A stretch of DNA of 64,000 bases, from assembly GCA_007922225.1 (NCBI GenBank), contig ML679961.1, positions 4,479,295-4,543,294 on the forward strand. Direction: 5' to 3'. Origin of the DNA: Emydura subglobosa (Eukaryota > Chordata > Testudines > Chelidae). Under the pieces are notes generated by a model that ran no database searches, was not told the origin of the DNA, and was given only the letters and a program-made list of their open reading frames with translations. Position numbers and translations under genes: made by a program. Shown here piece after piece: positions 26,712 through 34,790 of this stretch. The number at the start of each line of letters is the position of its first letter. Within the stretch, counting starts at the first letter, position 1.

Positions 26712-27514
26712 AAAACACAGATTAGCCCCATTTACCCCTGCATGCTTGGACTCAAGGTCTGTGCAGGTGGCGTTCTTACGCTCTTTTGCATAGGTGTCTA
26801 GTTACCGTGTAGTCCTTAGTAACTTTAAAACCTGTTTGCCTAAATAATTCCAGCACTCTTTGGGACAAAATAAAGCCAAACTATAATGCAAATGAAAGAA
26901 AGAAAATGAACACCAGAAACACATAATCTTCATTCTGCTATCCTAGTTCTCCTCCTAATCTACGCAATAAGCAAGGACTGAGTGAGAGTTTACATGACAC
27001 ATTATGTCATTTGTAGTCAGTAAAATTATATTTTTATATTATTTGCCTCATTAGACAAACAGTATCAAACTCTCAGCACCATCCTCTGTTACTAGGCATT
27101 TCTGGTGGAAAATAAAAACCCGCCTGCAATTATTTTTCTAGGGTTTAGACTCATAGACGCTAGCAGCCACCTGGGGCTAGTTTTGCCCTCATGCAACTGT
27201 TGGAGGCCCAATGCAATTTGAACTGCCTGACCACGGTCCTACAGGACTAGCATAGCTTCAGGTGCTGGCTTGGCTATTCTGACCCCCGTAGCAAGACATC
27301 TTCCGGTTGGCAGAGATGAATAAAACTGCTGAGTAACCTTGCAGACGTCTCAGTTTCTGCATACCACGGCACATAACAAAACAAGATACACAACATGTGC
27401 GCTTGCAGCTGCACATAAGTAACAGTAATAAAAACAAGTTATCCTTAAATGTCTAGGGATACACTTTTTCACTGCCAAGGGGTATACCTTTATACCACCC
27501 CTCCTATCACCAAA
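26712..27514. other. Left flank of the endogenous retrovirus
   Basis: Ordinary AT-rich non-coding sequence with normal G content on both strands. A motif 'gatgaataaaactgctgag' at 27315-27333 looks like a polyadenylation context and might belong to an older LTR, but no ends were found. Confidence 0.45.
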
Positions 27515-27955
27515 TGTTGTTTTAACAATCCCAATTACCATAACAAAAATAAAATATAATCAAAAATAAAAACCCAGTACAAATAATTAGCATATATAAT
27601 AATAAATAAAAATATTAAATAAAAACTCTTTATAAAAAAAACATAAAAGTCACTACTTAAACAAAAAAGTGCACTCCATGAACACCTGACTCCATGGGAG
27701 GTACTGGCAGTCGAACCAAAGGCCACTGACTCCCTGGCGGGGCCCCTAAAAAAAGTATTTCCTGTATACAGCCTTCAAAGTGACTGCTTAGCTCTCTAAG
27801 CTTAGTAAATATAATATATTGTAATTAATTCTAGGCTTTATATGCAACTAGTATATCTATAAAAAGCCTTACACATTAAACCTTATTGATCTGCAAATCG
27901 GGCGTACCGTGTCTCACTGGTATTCACACTAATCATTAAGCATCTAGTATCAACA
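27515..27955 (+). repeat. 5' LTR of the endogenous retrovirus
   Basis: It begins TGTTG and ends CAACA, a perfect 5-bp inverted end of the TG...CA type, 441 bp apart, with the primer-binding site 2 bases further on. A TATA box (TATAAAAA, 27858-27865) and an ATTAAA that could serve as polyadenylation signal (27875-27880) lie near the 3' side, so U3 is about 360 bp. The part at 27520-27660 is A-rich and G-poor, like the hypermutated body, whereas 27661-27955 has normal G. No second copy was found downstream. Confidence 0.8.
27858..27865 (+). promoter_or_regulatory. TATA box of the retroviral LTR
   Basis: TATAAAAA, 90-97 bases before the LTR end, in the expected place between U3 and R. It is followed 10 bases later by ATTAAA. 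Activity today is unknown. Confidence 0.65.
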
Positions 27956-27957
27956 AT

Positions 27958-27975
27958 TGGCATCCCTGGGTGTGC
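27958..27975 (+). promoter_or_regulatory. Primer-binding site, tRNA-Asn type
   Basis: TGGCATCCCTGGGTGTGC matches the complement of the 3' end of vertebrate tRNA-Asn(GTT) at 16 of 18 positions, and the match continues into the next bases (tcga). The two differences are one G-to-A and one G-to-T. The site begins 2 bases after the LTR, the normal spacing. tRNA-Asn is an uncommon primer among retroviruses. Confidence 0.8.
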
Positions 27976-28095
27976 TCGATCAGCTGTGAGTGAGACGATC
28001 TTTGAGGCGTACGGTGCAAGGGTTTCTCTCCCTGCGTCTCAGCTGGATAGCAACCTGTCTGACACAGTTTTCTGCGAAACTGTATCTGTATTTGG

Positions 28096-28943
28096 CTTCA
28101 GAAAAAGGGCATTATGTCCTCTATAGGAATGTGTTGTAAGTCAGGCGGTCGAGGGGTTGCCACTCCTGCCCTCCTTTTGCTAGAACCAGTCTCGAATATA
28201 AAAGTTTTTGTAGATGGCCAAAAAAACAAAAAAACAAAACCCCATGGTCTAAAGAAACATTTAAAAGTAAACCAGCATATGCAGACTTGGTGCTCCAGTG
28301 GGAACAATTCATAAAGACAAAGCCTGATCGTAATAAAAAGTGCGTGGCTGCTCTACATGGGCTCGTTTTAGTATCTAAAACCCTTACTGAAGAGTTAAGG
28401 AAGTTAGCCAAAAAAACCAAGCAGCTGCATAAACAGTTAACAGCATACCAAAATCAAATACAAAAAATAAAACTAAAGTATCAATCTTCAGCTAATTTGC
28501 TCTCTAACTCTCAGCGCAATATAAAAAAATACAAAAAACCCCCAACTAAACAGTAAAAAAACCCAGCTCATCTCTAAAAAGCAAAATATAAGGATGCGCT
28601 AGTTGTGGTACGCATTGTCCTGGAGAAGAAAAAGGGCCAGTCCCGTGGAGCTTGTTGGCGGCAGTTATCTCAGTGTACAAAGCAATTGGCTGCTGCTCAG
28701 GGAATTATTGCTGCCATGCAGGCAGATGAAGGTTGTAACGGTGTAAAAAGTGTTGGTATGCAGGACTTTGATCTGTCAGCCCTCTGTTATGCAGAGGCTG
28801 CGAAAAATAAAAACCAGTCAAATCAGAGCATAGAATGTCCTTTCCCCTATGTTCCTCTCCGGCAAATAGTAAAACAACTGGTTAAAAAAAAATATGTTGC
28901 GGGCTGCAGCACCCATGGCTCCTGTAATTATTTTTTTTTTTAA
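28096..28943 (+). pseudogene. gag-like region of the endogenous retrovirus
   Basis: The region after the leader carries two open pieces in different frames. The first starts at 28114 and closes at 28314; the second, 28287-28556, has a coiled-coil-like heptad pattern (for example LTEELRKLAKKTKQLHKQL at about 28386-28442). A third piece (28605-28943) continues with text typical of a structural polyprotein but no motif I can name. Position between primer-binding site and protease makes Gag the natural call. Frameshifts and Lys-rich substitutions (AAA from GAA or AGA) show decay and editing. Confidence 0.55.
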
Positions 28944-29320
28944 AACATTAAAAAAAAATTTTAAAAACCCACCTCCCACACTAACACCAAAGTAAATAAA
29001 ATATTAAAACTTAAACAAGTGCAGGTACTAAAAAAAAGCTTTAAAAAACATCACCCCTGAGAATGTAGTTGCCTAGTTTGCACAGCTTATCACAGTGCCT
29101 CAGTTAAATTATAGTAATTATGCCTTACTCTTAAAAAAATGTTTCCCATTAAACACCTTCTTAAAACTCTCCGTACATATACAAAAAAAAAAAAAAAAGT
29201 ACCCATATAAAAATGTTTTTAAAGTAGTAAATCCTGGCAAGCACATTAAGGTGTGCTTTCATCGAAAGCGGTAAGACCTAAAAAACACCCTAATGCTTAC
29301 TTTAAACGTAAAAAAATCTT

Positions 29321-30000
29321 ATGGCAAGCTATAGGGCATTAAAAAAAAGTCAAAACCTTATAAACACAGACTTTCCAACTCGTTTAATAAAAAGTAAGAG
29401 TTGCTTTAGGTACGCTAAATTTACCAGCTATAACATGGAAGGCACTGTTACAGAAATTCAGCAAGCTCATTTACTAGTAAGGCAAGCCTTCCCTAATAAA
29501 CACCAGAAAAAAGCTGCTAAAGAAACCAGAAAAAAAAAGTGGCTGCTCAAATCACCTTTCAGAATCAAGGGAGCAAGAAAGGTGATTTAGTCCCTAAGGC
29601 AGTTAATAGAGGGCATGGCCGAGGGCGAGGCCATGGGAGGATCGATCCCCTGTGCTGGGAACTGTGGAATGAAGCTCTCCGATATGCCCTTAAAGCTCTA
29701 ATTAATTGCAAATCAAATAAGCAGCTGGCTGACTTAATTTATCAAAAAAAAAAAAAATGTCATACTCCAAAAATACATGCTAAGAAGGGTCAATGGCCGA
29801 TCCCACTGCCTGAAGGAAAGCCCTCGGAGGCAGGCAGGCATCCCCTAATACATGCAGCACCTTCAACATATAATAAATTAAAACAACCCAATATTGGGGT
29901 GGATTTTGAACCGGGGGTGTTTGGAGAGCATATGCTTATAAATATTGGTGCTACTATTTCATTAATTAATGACCGCTTAGTTCCTGCAACAGTCAAATAA
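29321..30000 (+). pseudogene. gag-pol junction with protease remnant
   Basis: The frame 29539-30000 contains a basic GR-rich run, RGHGRGRGHGR (about 29606-29640), then a protease-like end. Here the active-site region reads INIGAT, with the codon at 29941-29943 being AAT (Asn) where retroviral aspartic proteases have the catalytic Asp. A GR-rich stretch before protease is reminiscent of spuma-like Gag but could be chance. The stretch 29590-29700 keeps many GG dinucleotides, so editing is patchy here. Confidence 0.65.
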
Positions 30001-30429
30001 AAAAAAAAAAAATCACCAACAAAAATTTTAAAAATGTAAAAGTTCCAGTGTAAATATGCCCCTCTCTCATCCCCTTACTTACACCATTATTAAAAAAACA
30101 AACACCTTTTTTTAGTTTGGCAAATGCTAAAAAAGCAGCTATTTTAGGCATAAACTCTGTGCTTAAATGCAGGATGTTGTTGATTTAACTAATTGAGTGA
30201 TATAAATTAAATTAAAAATTCCTAAAATTATTGCAGCTGCACACAGGGTGGCAGCTTTTAAAGAAACAGAGCTAGTCTCAGTTACAGTAGAGTGGTATTC
30301 CCTAAATGTTGCTAACATAGCACAGGCACACCCACAAGCATGGGCCAAAAATAAATTAAACTGTGTCGAGTGGATGCCTGTGTTCTTATTGTAAGACTTA
30401 ATCCACCACCCCAAAAGCAGTACAAATAC

Positions 30430-31090
30430 CCAAAAAAGGCTAAAAAAAAAAAAAAAATTGTTACCAACAAAAAGTCCTAGTAAAAACTAATAGCATACAC
30501 AACTCCCCCATATGGTCAGTCCATAAAGCAGACAAAAAAACCTGGTGACTTACAGTAAATTTCAGAGCATTAAATACATATACACCCAAAACAGTCCCTG
30601 TAGTAGCCAAGTTACCAAATGTTATGGCTGCAGTAGGTATGGGAACTAAATAGTTTTCAGTAATGAATATATCAAATGCATTATTTGCTATTCCTCAGCA
30701 TCCTGGTATAAATTTGCTATTACCCACAGGGATCATCAACTCACATTCATCCGTGTTCCACAGGGGCTACACTGCTCCCCCATCATTTGTCACACCCATA
30801 TTATTAAATTATAAAATACGTGCACAGCACCAATAAATGTTCTCTCTTATGTAAATAATGTTCTCATTTAAACTATAACCCAAGAAGCCCAGTTGCTTTT
30901 GCTCAATGCAGTAATCTCCCTAATTAAGCAAGCAGGATTCCAAATTAATTTTAAAAAAGCCCAATTGTGTCAGCAAAATATCCACTACCTAAGTTCAGTA
31001 TTAAAACAACAAAAAATACCCCTAATCAGCAAAAAGTAAAATGAATTTGTAAACTGCCAGCACCCACTAATGTCTCTGCATTGCAATCCT
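30430..31090 (+). pseudogene. Reverse transcriptase remnant
   Basis: Two frames together show RT order. In one, VNFRALNTYTPKTVPVV (about 30556-30606) precedes FSVMNISNALF (30654-30686). In another, VPQGLHCSP (about 30755-30781) precedes YVNN (30848-30859) and an 'AQLCQQ' segment. At the metal-binding positions of motif A (30666-30668) and motif C (30854-30859) all three residues read Asn (AAT) where the family has Asp. A frameshift lies between about 30690 and 30722, and several stops are present. It is non-functional. Confidence 0.8.
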
Positions 31091-31091
31091 T

Positions 31092-31448
31092 TTGAAGTCT
31101 CACAAAATAGCTCCACATCCGTGTAAAAAATGTTGCCTTAAAGCCACAGCCACCGTACCAGCTACTACAAAAAGAGTACCCTACAAATGGGGCCCAAAAC
31201 AGGATCGGGCCCTATTAAAACTAAAGGAAGCAGTAACATCCGCCCCTGCGCTACCATACCCAAATAACACAAAACCATTTGTGTCGCAGTTAGCTCATTT
31301 CCCAAAGGGAATAAAAGCTATTTTAATCCAAAAAAGGTCCTCTGGTCAAAAGCCAGTAGCGTTTCCTTCCCAAATACTAAAAGGGCCAAAAATCACCTTT
31401 ACCCCTTATAAAAAAATGCTAGCATTGGTATGGGCCTTAGAGCACTGA
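31092..31448 (+). pseudogene. RT connection / RNase H-like region
   Basis: An open 118-codon frame includes KWGPKQDRALLKLKEAVTSA near the start, then GIKAILIQ, QKPVAFPSQIL and a closing MLALVWALEH. The order matches the segment after the RT palm in retroviral and Ty3-like Pol (an 'APAL..P' motif, then a 'PVAF.S..L' motif, then an 'ALVWALE' motif). Several GG and GA dinucleotides survive around 31190-31260, so this island is less edited than the sequence on either side. Confidence 0.75.
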
Positions 31449-32689
31449 CAATCCCTCACTGGTTCTGCCCCATTATTTTTCGACTGGCCCACACCCCTCT
31501 TAAATACATAATATCAAATAATAAAAAAGGCAAATATCCAGCCCCATATTAGCTAAATAAACCATAACTTTAATAAATAAAACTATAAAATTCCAACCAC
31601 CTACGGCTTCCAATCAGGCCCCATATACCCTAATAATTAAGAGTGCTAAGCATAATTGCCCTCTCTCTCTGACAAAGCCAGCGCTTCTCAAACCTTTTCA
31701 GCCTGTAAATGGTTGAAGAGCCATAAAAACTCTACCTAAAAGCCCAAAAATTTAGTTCGTAAATAAATCCTCTTACATAAAACAACAATCTCCCAAAACA
31801 ATGTATGCAGCAATTTGCTACCCACATAAAACCCTTATAGCAAAAAGCTGCATGCCATACTCCGCAAAAGCAGCGAAATCCGTTGCTGTGCATGCCACAT
31901 TAATAAGTGCAGAGACTAATATTCCTGTAGTTATAGCCTCAAACTCTAACTGGACTATACAAGCATGCTTAAATTAAATACTCATATACAAAAAAAAACA
32001 TGTACAGCTTAAATAATAAACCCATCTGTCATGCTAAAAAAAATTAAGGCATTATAAAAAAACAAACTGCAACACCAACCTCCAATCTGGCTACCAAAAA
32101 TATCCACCCATAAAAAAATAAAAATAATAACAAAATAAAACAAACAAAGCAGCCAACCCCACCCCCATATTCAAAATGGCAGGCGCCAATCTCCCCAATA
32201 CTGCTGCTCAAAAAATCCAAAAAAAATCTCTACCCATTGCAAGTTTAGCAACTTTACAAAAAAATAAAGCTAGCACACAACAGCTGCTGAAACAAAAATA
32301 AATAAATAAAAAGGTTAAAGAGCATTCAAATAGTTGCTTATAGCCAAACAAAAAAAAATTTAAAAAAAACTTTATAAATTATTCCAACAAAATATTGTAT
32401 TAAAAGCAAGGCATGAAAATAGCCATTTTCATATTAAAAAAACTCTAATCCGCTTAAAAACAATAAAATAATAATCCAATATAAAACACTAAATTAACAA
32501 TTGCCTAGCCTGTGCAATAAACCACCCAAATATTTCTAAAAAAACCCAAAACCCACTTAGCCACCAAAAGCTTATAAAACCCTAAAGTCACCTCCAAATA
32601 AGTTATACTAAGATACTCACCAGTAAAACAGGCCATTGTTTCTGTTTAGTAATTATTAATCCATTTACCAAACATGTCAAAGCCTTTCC

Positions 32690-33100
32690 CACTCAAAACA
32701 ATACTACTCGTACCACAGCTAAGATACTAGTAAATCACATCTTCGCCAAATAAGAACTCCCCCTCAAAATTAACAAATAATAATAGTCCTCACTTTATTA
32801 ATAAAATCTGAAAATATACGTATAAAACCTTAAGCATAAAACAAAAATAACATATACCATACCATCCTCAAACTTCAAAAGCAATGAAACGCACTAATCA
32901 AACTTTAAAATTGGCTTTAAAAAAAGTAATCAATGCTCAAAAAAAATTAAATTGCCAAATTGCCCTTAATACTCATGGCTCTAAAAATAACAAAAGTGCC
33001 CATGAGTATTCCCCCTTTAAAATTATAACTCTAGTAAATGCTATAAATGCTAGTAAACAAGTAATCCTCCAAATAAGCTCCAACCCAAATTATTAGCTAA
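32690..33100 (+). pseudogene. Integrase remnant
   Basis: The frame through 32860-33094 reads HPQTSKAMKRTNQTLKLALK, which aligns with the end of the retroviral integrase core. The third catalytic residue of the D,D-35-E triad is a Glu in that motif, but here the codon at 32887-32889 is AAA (Lys). Upstream text (about 32740-32860) has the right spacing for the preceding core but is broken by stops at former Trp or Arg codons. Downstream, the frame stays open to 33094. Confidence 0.78.
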
Positions 33101-34790
33101 TCAATATATGTTACAATTGCTACAAAATATTATGCACATACATCAACAAATAGCTAATACACTTAATACAAATATTAAAAATATAAATCAGCAATTTGGT
33201 CCCATATTAAGACCCCAAAAATAACAAATTACAAATCAAATGCTATACAAAGTTACAAAAAATTTGCACATTCTTTAAACCCACAATAAATAAAACCTAT
33301 ATTCATAATAAATAAAACTAGCCCCGATATATATCAAATACAAATTAAAAATTAAAAAACATTATATTAATTTCATTCTTTACAGCTTAAAACATAAAAA
33401 ATACCTAAATTATAGGCAAAAACAACAAAGCCTGTGCCCGTAATACATCCTTTAAAGCACCTATTCTAATATTTTTAATCACATTGTTAATTATGCCATA
33501 AATAACCACCCTATATTCAAAAAACCCGTTATTATAATATATCAAGCCTCTTGCCACAACTCATTTCAATTTATTTACTTGCAAAGTAACCGCTGCATAT
33601 CTAAATAGCAAACTAAATGTAATAACCGCCAACTCATATAATTCCTACAAAACCAATAAAATTTACAATACAAAAAAATATAAAATACCACAATACAATT
33701 CCTCTATTATGCCATATAATTTAATAAACCACTAAATAACAACAAATATAAAAATTAAATATATATTATAAATAAATAATACTAATAAAATCTTTAAATC
33801 CTGCTTTTATTTTGTGGATTTTTATGTGTAAATAATTATCACACAAATCCACAAGGGCACACAAAAACACAAAGTAAGAACATACAATATTAAAAAAAAT
33901 ATATAATGTTCTTGCTATTATAATATAAACAAAAACAAAATATACAATCTCAAACAAATATCACAAAATAACACACCTGCCCACTACTGTCTACCAAAAA
34001 AAATGCTTTAAAGTTTAAAATAATAGCTTTTTGTAATTTTAAAAAGTAACCCACAATTAATATCAGCAAAATGAATATCCCCCCACAAAAAAGCCAGCCT
34101 AAATACTTTAATTTATTTACACAAAATAAATTAAACCAAAAAAACCCAAAACAACACACCATTATAATATCAAAATCAATGTAAAATAATTTACAACAAA
34201 GCCAGTTTTAACTATTACTACATAAAATATTCCACCTAATGAAAAAAACACCTGCTACTAAACTAAAAATATATTATCCACAATAAATTTTCATTAATTC
34301 CTCTGTCAGTATGACAATATACATAAACACCTATCAAAATATCATTACACATCGTGCTCCCAAGCCCCAAAAACATATTTAAAAAAATTATGAAAGCCAA
34401 ATACTAAACCCCCCAGAAGGTCACTTTATAAAAACACATATAAATATACAAAATATTAACATATCCCGCCTACTTCCCCATTGCGCACCATTTGTAACAC
34501 CCCAATATAAAAATAGCTTCACTACACAAACACCTAAATAACACACAATGCTAACGCATGTGCACATCCTAAACAAAACGTTAAAAAACCTTTAAAAATA
34601 TATATATATATAAAAGCATCAACAAAAATACTAAATACAATTAATAATTTTTTTAAACAAATAAATTAAGCATTCAAAACAAAACCCTTAAAGCCCTATC
34701 GAATCCCATACTACACACATATTCAGCCTTAAAATATACAAAAACAATTACTTAAAAATATATGAATACCCTAAAAAATAAAAAACACGC
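33101..34790 (+). other. 3' part of the retrovirus, extreme G loss, env not identifiable
   Basis: About 1.7 kb of A-, T- and C-rich sequence with very few G. Position suggests env, but no motif can be named and all frames are closed by stops. A-rich runs at 34771-34787 could be what is left of the polypurine tract. Near 34790 composition returns abruptly to normal ('cgcccctggcctggggacaa') without any LTR-like end. Confidence 0.55.

Follow-up and report, generated by a model that had tools for sequence, protein, structure and literature searches.

An endogenous retrovirus at 27198-34786 of the window, i.e., the entire stretch of 64,000 nucleotides analyzed here, has lost most of its GG and GA dinucleotides toward its 3' end. 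We conclude with high confidence that the minus-strand cDNA of this copy was edited during reverse transcription, before its insertion, by a cytosine deaminase of the APOBEC family; an APOBEC1-like enzyme is predicted.

Extent and Parts of the Element

The original prediction placed the element at 27515..34790. These borders were corrected to an LTR start at 27198, where the letters were inspected directly, and an end of homology at about 34786 (34762 in one of seven relatives, 34778-34786 in the other six). The copy ends before the polypurine tract (PPT) and the 3' LTR and has the following parts:

27198..27955, plus strand: 5' LTR, TG...CA, 758 bp, aligned over its full length to the LTRs of the related loci L058, L060, L071, L082, and L083
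27958..27975, plus strand: candidate primer binding site, 2 bases past the LTR end, read from the sequence; it begins with TGG, as retroviral primer binding sites do
28140..29590, plus strand: broken region with open pieces at 28140-28556, 28578-28943, and 29312-29590 (from ORFs), which we take from its position to be gag
29521..30000, plus strand: open piece (ORF) with a stretch that is presumably protease-like, judged by a motif and position
31071..31448, plus strand: pol, RNase H-like end of reverse transcriptase (Pfam RT_RNaseH_2, E 1.3e-14)
31500..34786, plus strand: most heavily edited stretch, G fraction 0.05-0.08 (base counts)
32170..33410, plus strand: integrase region, broken, with approximate borders; domains inferred via alignment to L048
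34020..34786, plus strand: truncated start of an env-like region, from alignment to L048; "env" is a positional guess
34786..34787, no strand: 3' truncation at the end of homology; the remaining env-like region, the PPT, and the 3' LTR are absent

In the window copy itself, the retroviral parts recognized are the 5' LTR and RNase H, and reverse transcriptase and integrase are recognized via relatives. L033 carries RVT_1 and RNase H within a single natural ORF, and the natural ORFs of L048 that align to the integrase region match Integrase_H2C2 (5e-6) and rve (4e-16) in Pfam; the last piece of this region gave Pfam matches below the cut-off only. L076 has longer natural ORFs across the gag region and L048 a 391-aa ORF opposite the env-like region. 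Pfam showed no gag or env match, and none for the protease-like piece. The PDB sequence matches were Pr125Pol (81 bits) and reverse transcriptase p80 (79 bits), which we take to be of foamy and murine type, respectively. When the RNase H piece was compared with proteins, eight candidates came up, none of them a homologue at E 0.001, and Rfam gave no match in the window at gathering scores. The 3' LTR is present in relatives; when the L060/L082 tail was sought across the window, the only hits were those of its LTR to the 5' LTR, plus weak ones within the element.

G-to-A Substitution and Sequence Context

The coding strand had been described as strikingly poor in G but not in C, and this was confirmed, with 6 G and 16 C in 33541-33600. 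Across four stretches, the G fraction drops from 0.167 in 27515-29500 to 0.053 in 33500-34790, and C stays at 0.20-0.22 in all four. The 35 G in 33541-34200 are followed by A in 3, G in 3, C in 17, and T in 12 cases, which reproduces precisely the 29 G before C or T counted earlier and bears out the near loss of GG and GA. All 660-bp windows outside the element (n = 1837, overlapping, step 30) contain at least 87 G.

As the original prediction had proposed, substitutions were counted by type and by 3' neighbor against less mutated relatives, using non-CpG G and C positions and relatives in the host genome with normal G content (0.20-0.26). Such relatives were found, and G-to-A far exceeded C-to-T: in column counts, 632 of 1348 non-CpG G sites had changed to A vs. 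72 of 1222 C sites to T. C-to-T, A-to-G, and T-to-C each reached 2-6%, compared with 47% for G-to-A. The change depended on the following base, affecting 270/345 GA, 202/373 GG, 111/290 GT, and 49/340 GC sites, i.e., 472/718 GR vs. 160/630 GY sites (odds ratio 5.6, p = 5e-51, column counts). The mirror context of C-to-T (YC 27/589, RC 45/633) showed no comparable effect. Pairwise counts without pooling, made for 18 of 41 panel loci (13 insertions), gave GR over GY odds ratios of 3.4-11.1 in all 18 loci (p ≤ 2e-8 each); G-to-A and C-to-T stood at 313/636 and 46/612 against L036, and at 419/600 and 44/587 against L048. Between 31700 and 34786, 343 of 492 G sites had become A, and toward the 3' end of the virus 88-95% of the GG and GA sites were changed.

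The restriction of G-to-A to one strand and the preference for a following purine, seen against unedited relatives, support the proposed minus-strand deamination. Two outcomes had been named as speaking against it, namely relatives with the same low G content, or G-to-A not exceeding C-to-T and independent of the following base. Neither was found in that form, yet other G-poor copies do occur in the family. Both predicted targets, CC and TC, are edited; what had to be corrected is their ranking, as GA is changed more often than GG, corresponding to TC over CC on the minus strand. On the same counts, we rejected an APOBEC3G-like CC preference. Isolated GG pairs had become AA in 73 cases and GA in 6, remained GG in 75, and read AG in 27. 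The AG outcomes indicate that the first G was also edited alone and that CC is a direct target, so we rejected a model in which GG editing has to await that of the neighboring G. We infer a preferred order of TC>CC>AC>GC on the minus strand, which argues against AID as well as against an APOBEC3G-like enzyme.

Gradient and LTR Pattern

In the window copy, editing stands at 0.16-0.39 close to the 5' end and reaches about 0.8 where the copy is cut off on its 3' side. The fitted rise is +0.48 logit per kb (LRT chi2 224), and the Spearman correlation with position is 0.87 for G-to-A and -0.24 for C-to-T. Successive stretches of the 5' LTR show non-CpG G-to-A at 2/28, 2/15, 12/22, 14/19, 7/30, and 5/18 sites, i.e., editing is near-absent in the first third, strong in the middle, and light in the last third. 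The window copy itself has no 3' LTR; the behavior at U3 was read in two other edited copies, C31 and C133. In both, editing collapses near the start of U3 and then rises anew along the 3' LTR, and in C133 the drop starts upstream of the LTR. Sixths of the 3' LTR show 0/15, 1/6, 12/22, 28/28, 27/30, and 10/11 edited sites in one of the two copies and 3/15, 3/7, 11/14, 20/20, 25/27, and 11/11 in the other. In one copy, mid-LTR edits are found in both LTRs and last-third edits almost exclusively in the 3' LTR.

A gradient, a collapse at U3, and a second rise are expected if minus-strand cDNA is deaminated during reverse transcription. The deaminase would be carried in the particle or would already be present in the target cell, and would act on single-stranded minus DNA in the order of preference given above. 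This DNA would be exposed longest directly upstream of the PPT and shortest at the start of plus-strand synthesis, and the edited copy would then integrate as a dead provirus.

Relatives and Alternative Explanations

The context bias recurs in ten additional copies (GR/GY odds ratio 3.9-19) and is absent in many other relatives. Among the 150 matches listed in a search with the RNase H piece, 29 relatives were fetched; G-to-A amounted to 1-7% in 23 of them, 10% and 16% in two, and 33-36% in four.

The existence of several edited copies could mean that hypermutation struck a single ancestral copy, which passed its edits on to its descendants as it multiplied. In favor of this, shared edits exceed chance in 55 of 55 pairs, by 1-21% across copies, with the largest excess between C3 and C64 (21%) and between C3 and C25 (19%). 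However, this excess is far short of full sharing, and total editing in 31700-34786 differs widely, from 45% in L004 to 81% in L007. We therefore consider inherited edits an unlikely explanation.

All seven other loci fetched in the first DNA search were G-poor in the matched stretch, and the edited copies have other substitutions in common beyond expectation, as might be seen if the virus family, or a branch typified by the window copy, were naturally A-rich and G-poor; some retroviruses do have such a composition. It should be noted that an edited query returns edited copies and may thereby mimic such a family. We rejected an A-rich family because many relatives have a G fraction of 0.20-0.26 over the same positions. 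Moreover, an A-rich branch would not yield the 5'-3' gradient, the U3 reset, or different 5' and 3' LTRs in one copy, and sharing of edited sites in 31700-34786 is within 8% of the context expectation in 27 of 28 pairs. This makes natural A-richness very improbable.

AID, whose gene is present in the genome, has WRC (GYW on the plus strand) as its hotspot. This hotspot is avoided, with 108/408 GYW sites changed vs. 521/932 elsewhere, and AID was rejected as a mutator that has hardly any chance of being the right one. Post-insertion decay, through CpG loss or strand-biased mutation tied to transcription or repair, would fit the age of the copy, which is old, with differences at 313 of the 5069 non-G sites on which the relatives agree, but is practically negligible because CpG sites were left out of the counts, which rejects CpG decay, the other transitions stay far below G-to-A, and G-to-A is 1-6% (14%, 9/66, in one) and C-to-T 0-7% at fourteen loci of this family with normal G in the same genome.

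Host and Its Deaminase Genes

The APOBEC4 gene of the host is 89% identical to that of Mauremys, 88% to Pelusios, and 82% to Carettochelys (78% query coverage), and 93% to Terrapene over 54% of the query, with Alligator lower at 74%. As the three best matches are turtles and Alligator ranks behind them, a turtle host is supported.

Deamination of minus-strand cDNA in a reptile was predicted to require a member of the AID/APOBEC family other than APOBEC3, and a candidate was found, since three APOBEC1-like exons lie at most 60 kb from AID. Among six PF18769 matches they rank highest (145, 144, and 110 bits at C154:7012611, 6997558, and 6964524); AID scores 72 bits at C154:7021603, and all six, including AID and APOBEC2, are above the cut-off. 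No clear APOBEC3 was present among the deaminase exons found in the host genome. One APOBEC1-like enzyme of the cluster is equally close to APOBEC3 and APOBEC1. Known APOBEC1 prefers TC. We predict that the acting enzyme is one of the three APOBEC1-like proteins encoded near AID.

The chances appear even that, in turtles, with no clear APOBEC3 gene, the tandem APOBEC1-like cluster provides the antiretroviral hypermutators, and that an APOBEC3-style defense thus arose from APOBEC1 outside mammals. With three named candidate genes (seen as exons) beside AID and a predicted order of TC>CC>AC>GC, the question of what served the role of APOBEC3 outside placental mammals becomes testable.

Comparison With Known Systems

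This kind of editing is already known from mammals, birds, and lizards. Retroelement editing outside placental mammals is already described in PMC3880073 and PMC6523648. What stands out here is the strength of editing, the readable order of reverse transcription, and the fact that none of the exons found is clearly APOBEC3; the gradients, the U3 reset, and the LTR asymmetry of one copy are all legible in a turtle-like genome. Among the matches listed from the open-access literature, a scope outside which the 2016 vertebrate survey falls, no title reported turtle ERV hypermutation.

That survey (Knisbacher and Levanon 2016, as cited in PMC7760323 and PMC6523648) deals with LTR retrotransposons edited by APOBEC enzymes in vertebrates. 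It resembles our case in that G-to-A is confined to one strand of ERVs and LTR elements, zebra finch included, whose edited LTR elements are mentioned in PMC6523648, but is a genome survey. In lizards, according to the account of Lindic 2013 (PMC3880073), APOBEC1 is a DNA mutator and LINEs carry G-to-A changes. The likeness is a reptile deaminase acting on retroelements, with an APOBEC1-type candidate; the difference is that LINEs, not retroviruses, are affected, and that lizard LTR elements are reported there as unedited.

Endogenous murine leukemia viruses are described as APOBEC3-edited (Jern and others 2007, PMC2041998). Like the window copy, these proviruses are endogenous and show G-to-A over C-to-T and a 3'-base context; this account gives a TTC context on the minus strand and ascribes a 5' to 3' gradient to single-stranded minus DNA. 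Their host is a placental mammal with APOBEC3, whereas we find a turtle-like host and editing that climbs a second time within the LTR. Hypermutated HIV-1 shows twin gradients (Suspene 2006, as described in PMC3310730), which that source reports as not evident in every case. The likeness lies in a minimum immediately downstream of the polypurine tract, followed by a rise with distance, and in the near all-or-nothing editing of single genomes (PMC3310730). HIV-1 differs in being an exogenous lentivirus with a central PPT that is edited by APOBEC3G with a GG preference.

A hypermutated endogenous retrovirus and its relatives

The element at 27198-34786 (the window copy) is a sense-oriented endogenous retrovirus, with the following features:

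27198-27955, + strand: 5' LTR, from full-length alignment to the LTRs of relatives
within the window copy, + strand: RNase H-like stretch, from a Pfam match

Reverse transcriptase and integrase were found in natural open frames of relatives, and the gag, protease and env labels on the window copy are presumed ones, assigned from position. Homology to six of seven relatives breaks off at 34778-34786, that to the remaining one at 34762, and a search across the window for the rest of the retroviral tail found it nowhere else. The window copy thus has neither PPT nor 3' LTR.

The depletion of G is unique within the window, where 1837 other overlapping 660-bp windows contain at least 87 G each. Along the element, G content declines (0.167 to 0.053), with C at 0.20-0.22. 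The counts in the original prediction (6 G and 16 C in 33541-33600; 29 of 35 G in 33541-34200 standing before C or T) were reproduced exactly.

A DNA search with the window copy gave 43 matches, and the seven other loci retrieved were also G-poor in the matched stretch, in a search in which a G-depleted query favours G-depleted relatives. We also searched the host genome (1.93 Gb) with the RNase H piece as protein, which listed 150 matches, and retrieved 29 relatives besides the window. Most of these have G of 0.22-0.25 at the same positions, and the 4-kb downstream stretches of 14 of them contain about 16-36% G per 400 bp, mostly 18-28%. The less mutated relatives proposed for comparison therefore exist in the host genome. 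Sites with A in the window copy and G in normal-G relatives number in the hundreds and the opposite in the tens; for one relative, L036, the figures are 329 and 30, with C-T differences of 54 and 68.

In the RNase H search, contig pairs C10/C11, C1190/C1194, C873/C877 and C1021/C1072 gave paired matches that score the same or almost the same, which suggest that the assembly contains duplicates of some regions, where copy counts are upper bounds. A deletion derivative lacking about 2 kb (integrase region, 31690 to 33645) has a near-identical junction in six of the 14 loci with downstream stretches (L056-L061), so the deleted form has multiplied. Edited copies L028, L029 and L032, whose RNase H and 3' matches lie just 0.2-0.3 kb apart, appear to be deletion forms as well.

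Substitution type and context

Substitutions were counted against 41 normal-G loci (about 25 insertions), using columns with at least 3 panel loci present and at least 80% agreement and leaving out CpG sites. Editing denotes the fraction of agreed G sites that read A. In the window copy, 632 of 1352 sites were edited (632/1348 with a known next base), and the other changes in these columns were C-to-T 72/1226, A-to-G 38/1943 and T-to-C 54/1716. As the original prediction had anticipated, G-to-A lies far above C-to-T, and GA (270/345) and GG (202/373) exceed GT (111/290) and GC (49/340). On the minus strand, this order translates to TC>CC>AC>GC. The mirror test, C-to-T by preceding base, showed no comparable effect (YC 27/589, RC 45/633). 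Pairwise comparison with 18 panel loci (13 insertions), made without the agreement rule, gave an odds ratio of G before purine (GR) over G before pyrimidine (GY) of 3.4-11.1 in all 18. Sites matching the familiar AID hotspot motif were less edited (108/408) than the remaining sites (521/932).

Gradients along the element and in the LTRs

Per 500 bp from 5' to 3', editing in the window copy is 0.35, 0.16, 0.39, 0.29, 0.27, 0.42, 0.33, 0.41, 0.41, 0.50, 0.67, 0.69, 0.74, 0.81, 0.79 and 14/15. Position contributes beyond context (+0.48 logits per kb, LRT chi2 224), and C-to-T in the same copy has no such trend.

Because the window copy is truncated, we traced the 3' end in two other edited copies, on contigs C31 (L003 with L082) and C133 (L002 with L083). 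Both are still highly edited in the env-like region (e.g., 34/38 and 42/44), drop where the LTR begins (13/47, 2/45) before rising again; the drop is already under way before the LTR in the C133 copy (13/40 in the preceding bin) but not in the C31 copy (32/39). When the two 3' LTRs were aligned, edited sites numbered 0/15 and 3/15 in the first sixth, and 28/28, 27/30, 10/11 and 20/20, 25/27, 11/11 in the last three. The middle of the 5' LTR also rises (window copy 13/22, 20/26; C133 copy 13/18, 23/28), and its last two sixths fall (11/32, 3/12 and 9/30, 2/12). Between the C133 LTRs, G in the 5' and A in the 3' LTR occurs at 43 sites and the opposite at 11. A/G aside, 82 of 709 positions are different between the two, which marks both LTRs as old. 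Since the last third is low in the 5' but high in the 3' LTR, the edits there in the C133 3' LTR probably arose once its 5' counterpart had already been copied, as judged from this one pair. Upstream of its 3' LTR, the C133 copy carries an insert of about 0.9 kb with normal base composition (L083, about 274-1207).

Other edited copies

In ten other edited copies, the GR over GY odds ratio is 3.9 to 19, and seven of the ten are more heavily edited in 33000-34786 than in gag, a comparison for which L006 and L008 have too sparse 5' data. L008 falls from 0.69 to 0.40 over the last two bins, and the C3 copy (L004) is mixed, with 0.64 in 33000-34000 and 14/110 beyond. Per 150 bp across 33750-34650, L004 (C3:13.49 Mb) reads 20/23, 11/32, 8/22, then 0/20, 2/12, 1/36; this abrupt stop could reflect recombination, gene conversion or priming at a second site.

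Among the 29 relatives from the RNase H search, 23 show 1-7% editing, two show 10% and 16%, and four show 33-36%, the low values being partly built in since most low relatives helped define the G sites. L021 and L022 seem to represent a single copy that sits on duplicated contigs. Editing looks near all-or-nothing per copy. Within 31700-34786, shared edited sites lie within 8% of context expectation in 27 of 28 pairs, the exception being L004-L008 (89 against 66.3 expected); over the whole body, with position also matched, sharing is 1-21% above expectation in 55 of 55 pairs. We read this as mostly independent editing per copy plus finer hotspots or some common descent, short of proof of full independence. 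The mid-LTR of L066 (C24:10.06 Mb) carries many A positions of edited copies (14/38) and its gag region none (0/159); either editing was confined to the LTR, or an edited LTR variant went on replicating.

Candidate deaminases

The APOBEC_N profile matches the genome nine times: three AID exons, three APOBEC1-like exons, APOBEC2, APOBEC4 and one broken copy. The host's APOBEC4 has its nearest matches in turtles. The APOBEC1-like exons stand in tandem within 60 kb of AID (C154:6964434-7022235). For two of them the best solved structure is APOBEC-1 (138 and 121 bits vs 80 and 74 for the runner-up); the third scores 103 bits with APOBEC3G and 91 with APOBEC1, and in Pfam APOBEC1 (108.8 bits) ranks above APOBEC3 (87.5 bits). 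An APOBEC-like stretch at C23:25184468-25184878, whose matched frame is interrupted by eight stop codons, is probably a pseudogene. The proposal of an AID/APOBEC family member as the source agrees with the substitution pattern and with APOBEC1-like exons near AID, and we predict that one of the three APOBEC1-like proteins acted.

Relation to known editing

Strand-specific editing of vertebrate LTR elements, birds included, is described in PMC7760323 and PMC6523648, and LINE editing in a lizard in PMC3880073. No turtle case appeared in the literature searched, with the main vertebrate survey outside that search. The expectation that such editing would be notable in a turtle provirus is upheld for editing strength, host and the legible order of reverse transcription, but not for the kind of event.

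Direction, strand, context, gradients and the U3 reset form the pattern that minus-strand deamination in reverse transcription predicts, and from them we infer that the enzyme is an APOBEC; single-stranded minus DNA would have been deaminated during reverse transcription. Deamination of single-stranded minus DNA with such a pattern is described in PMC3310730 for HIV-1 and in PMC2041998 for mouse endogenous viruses.
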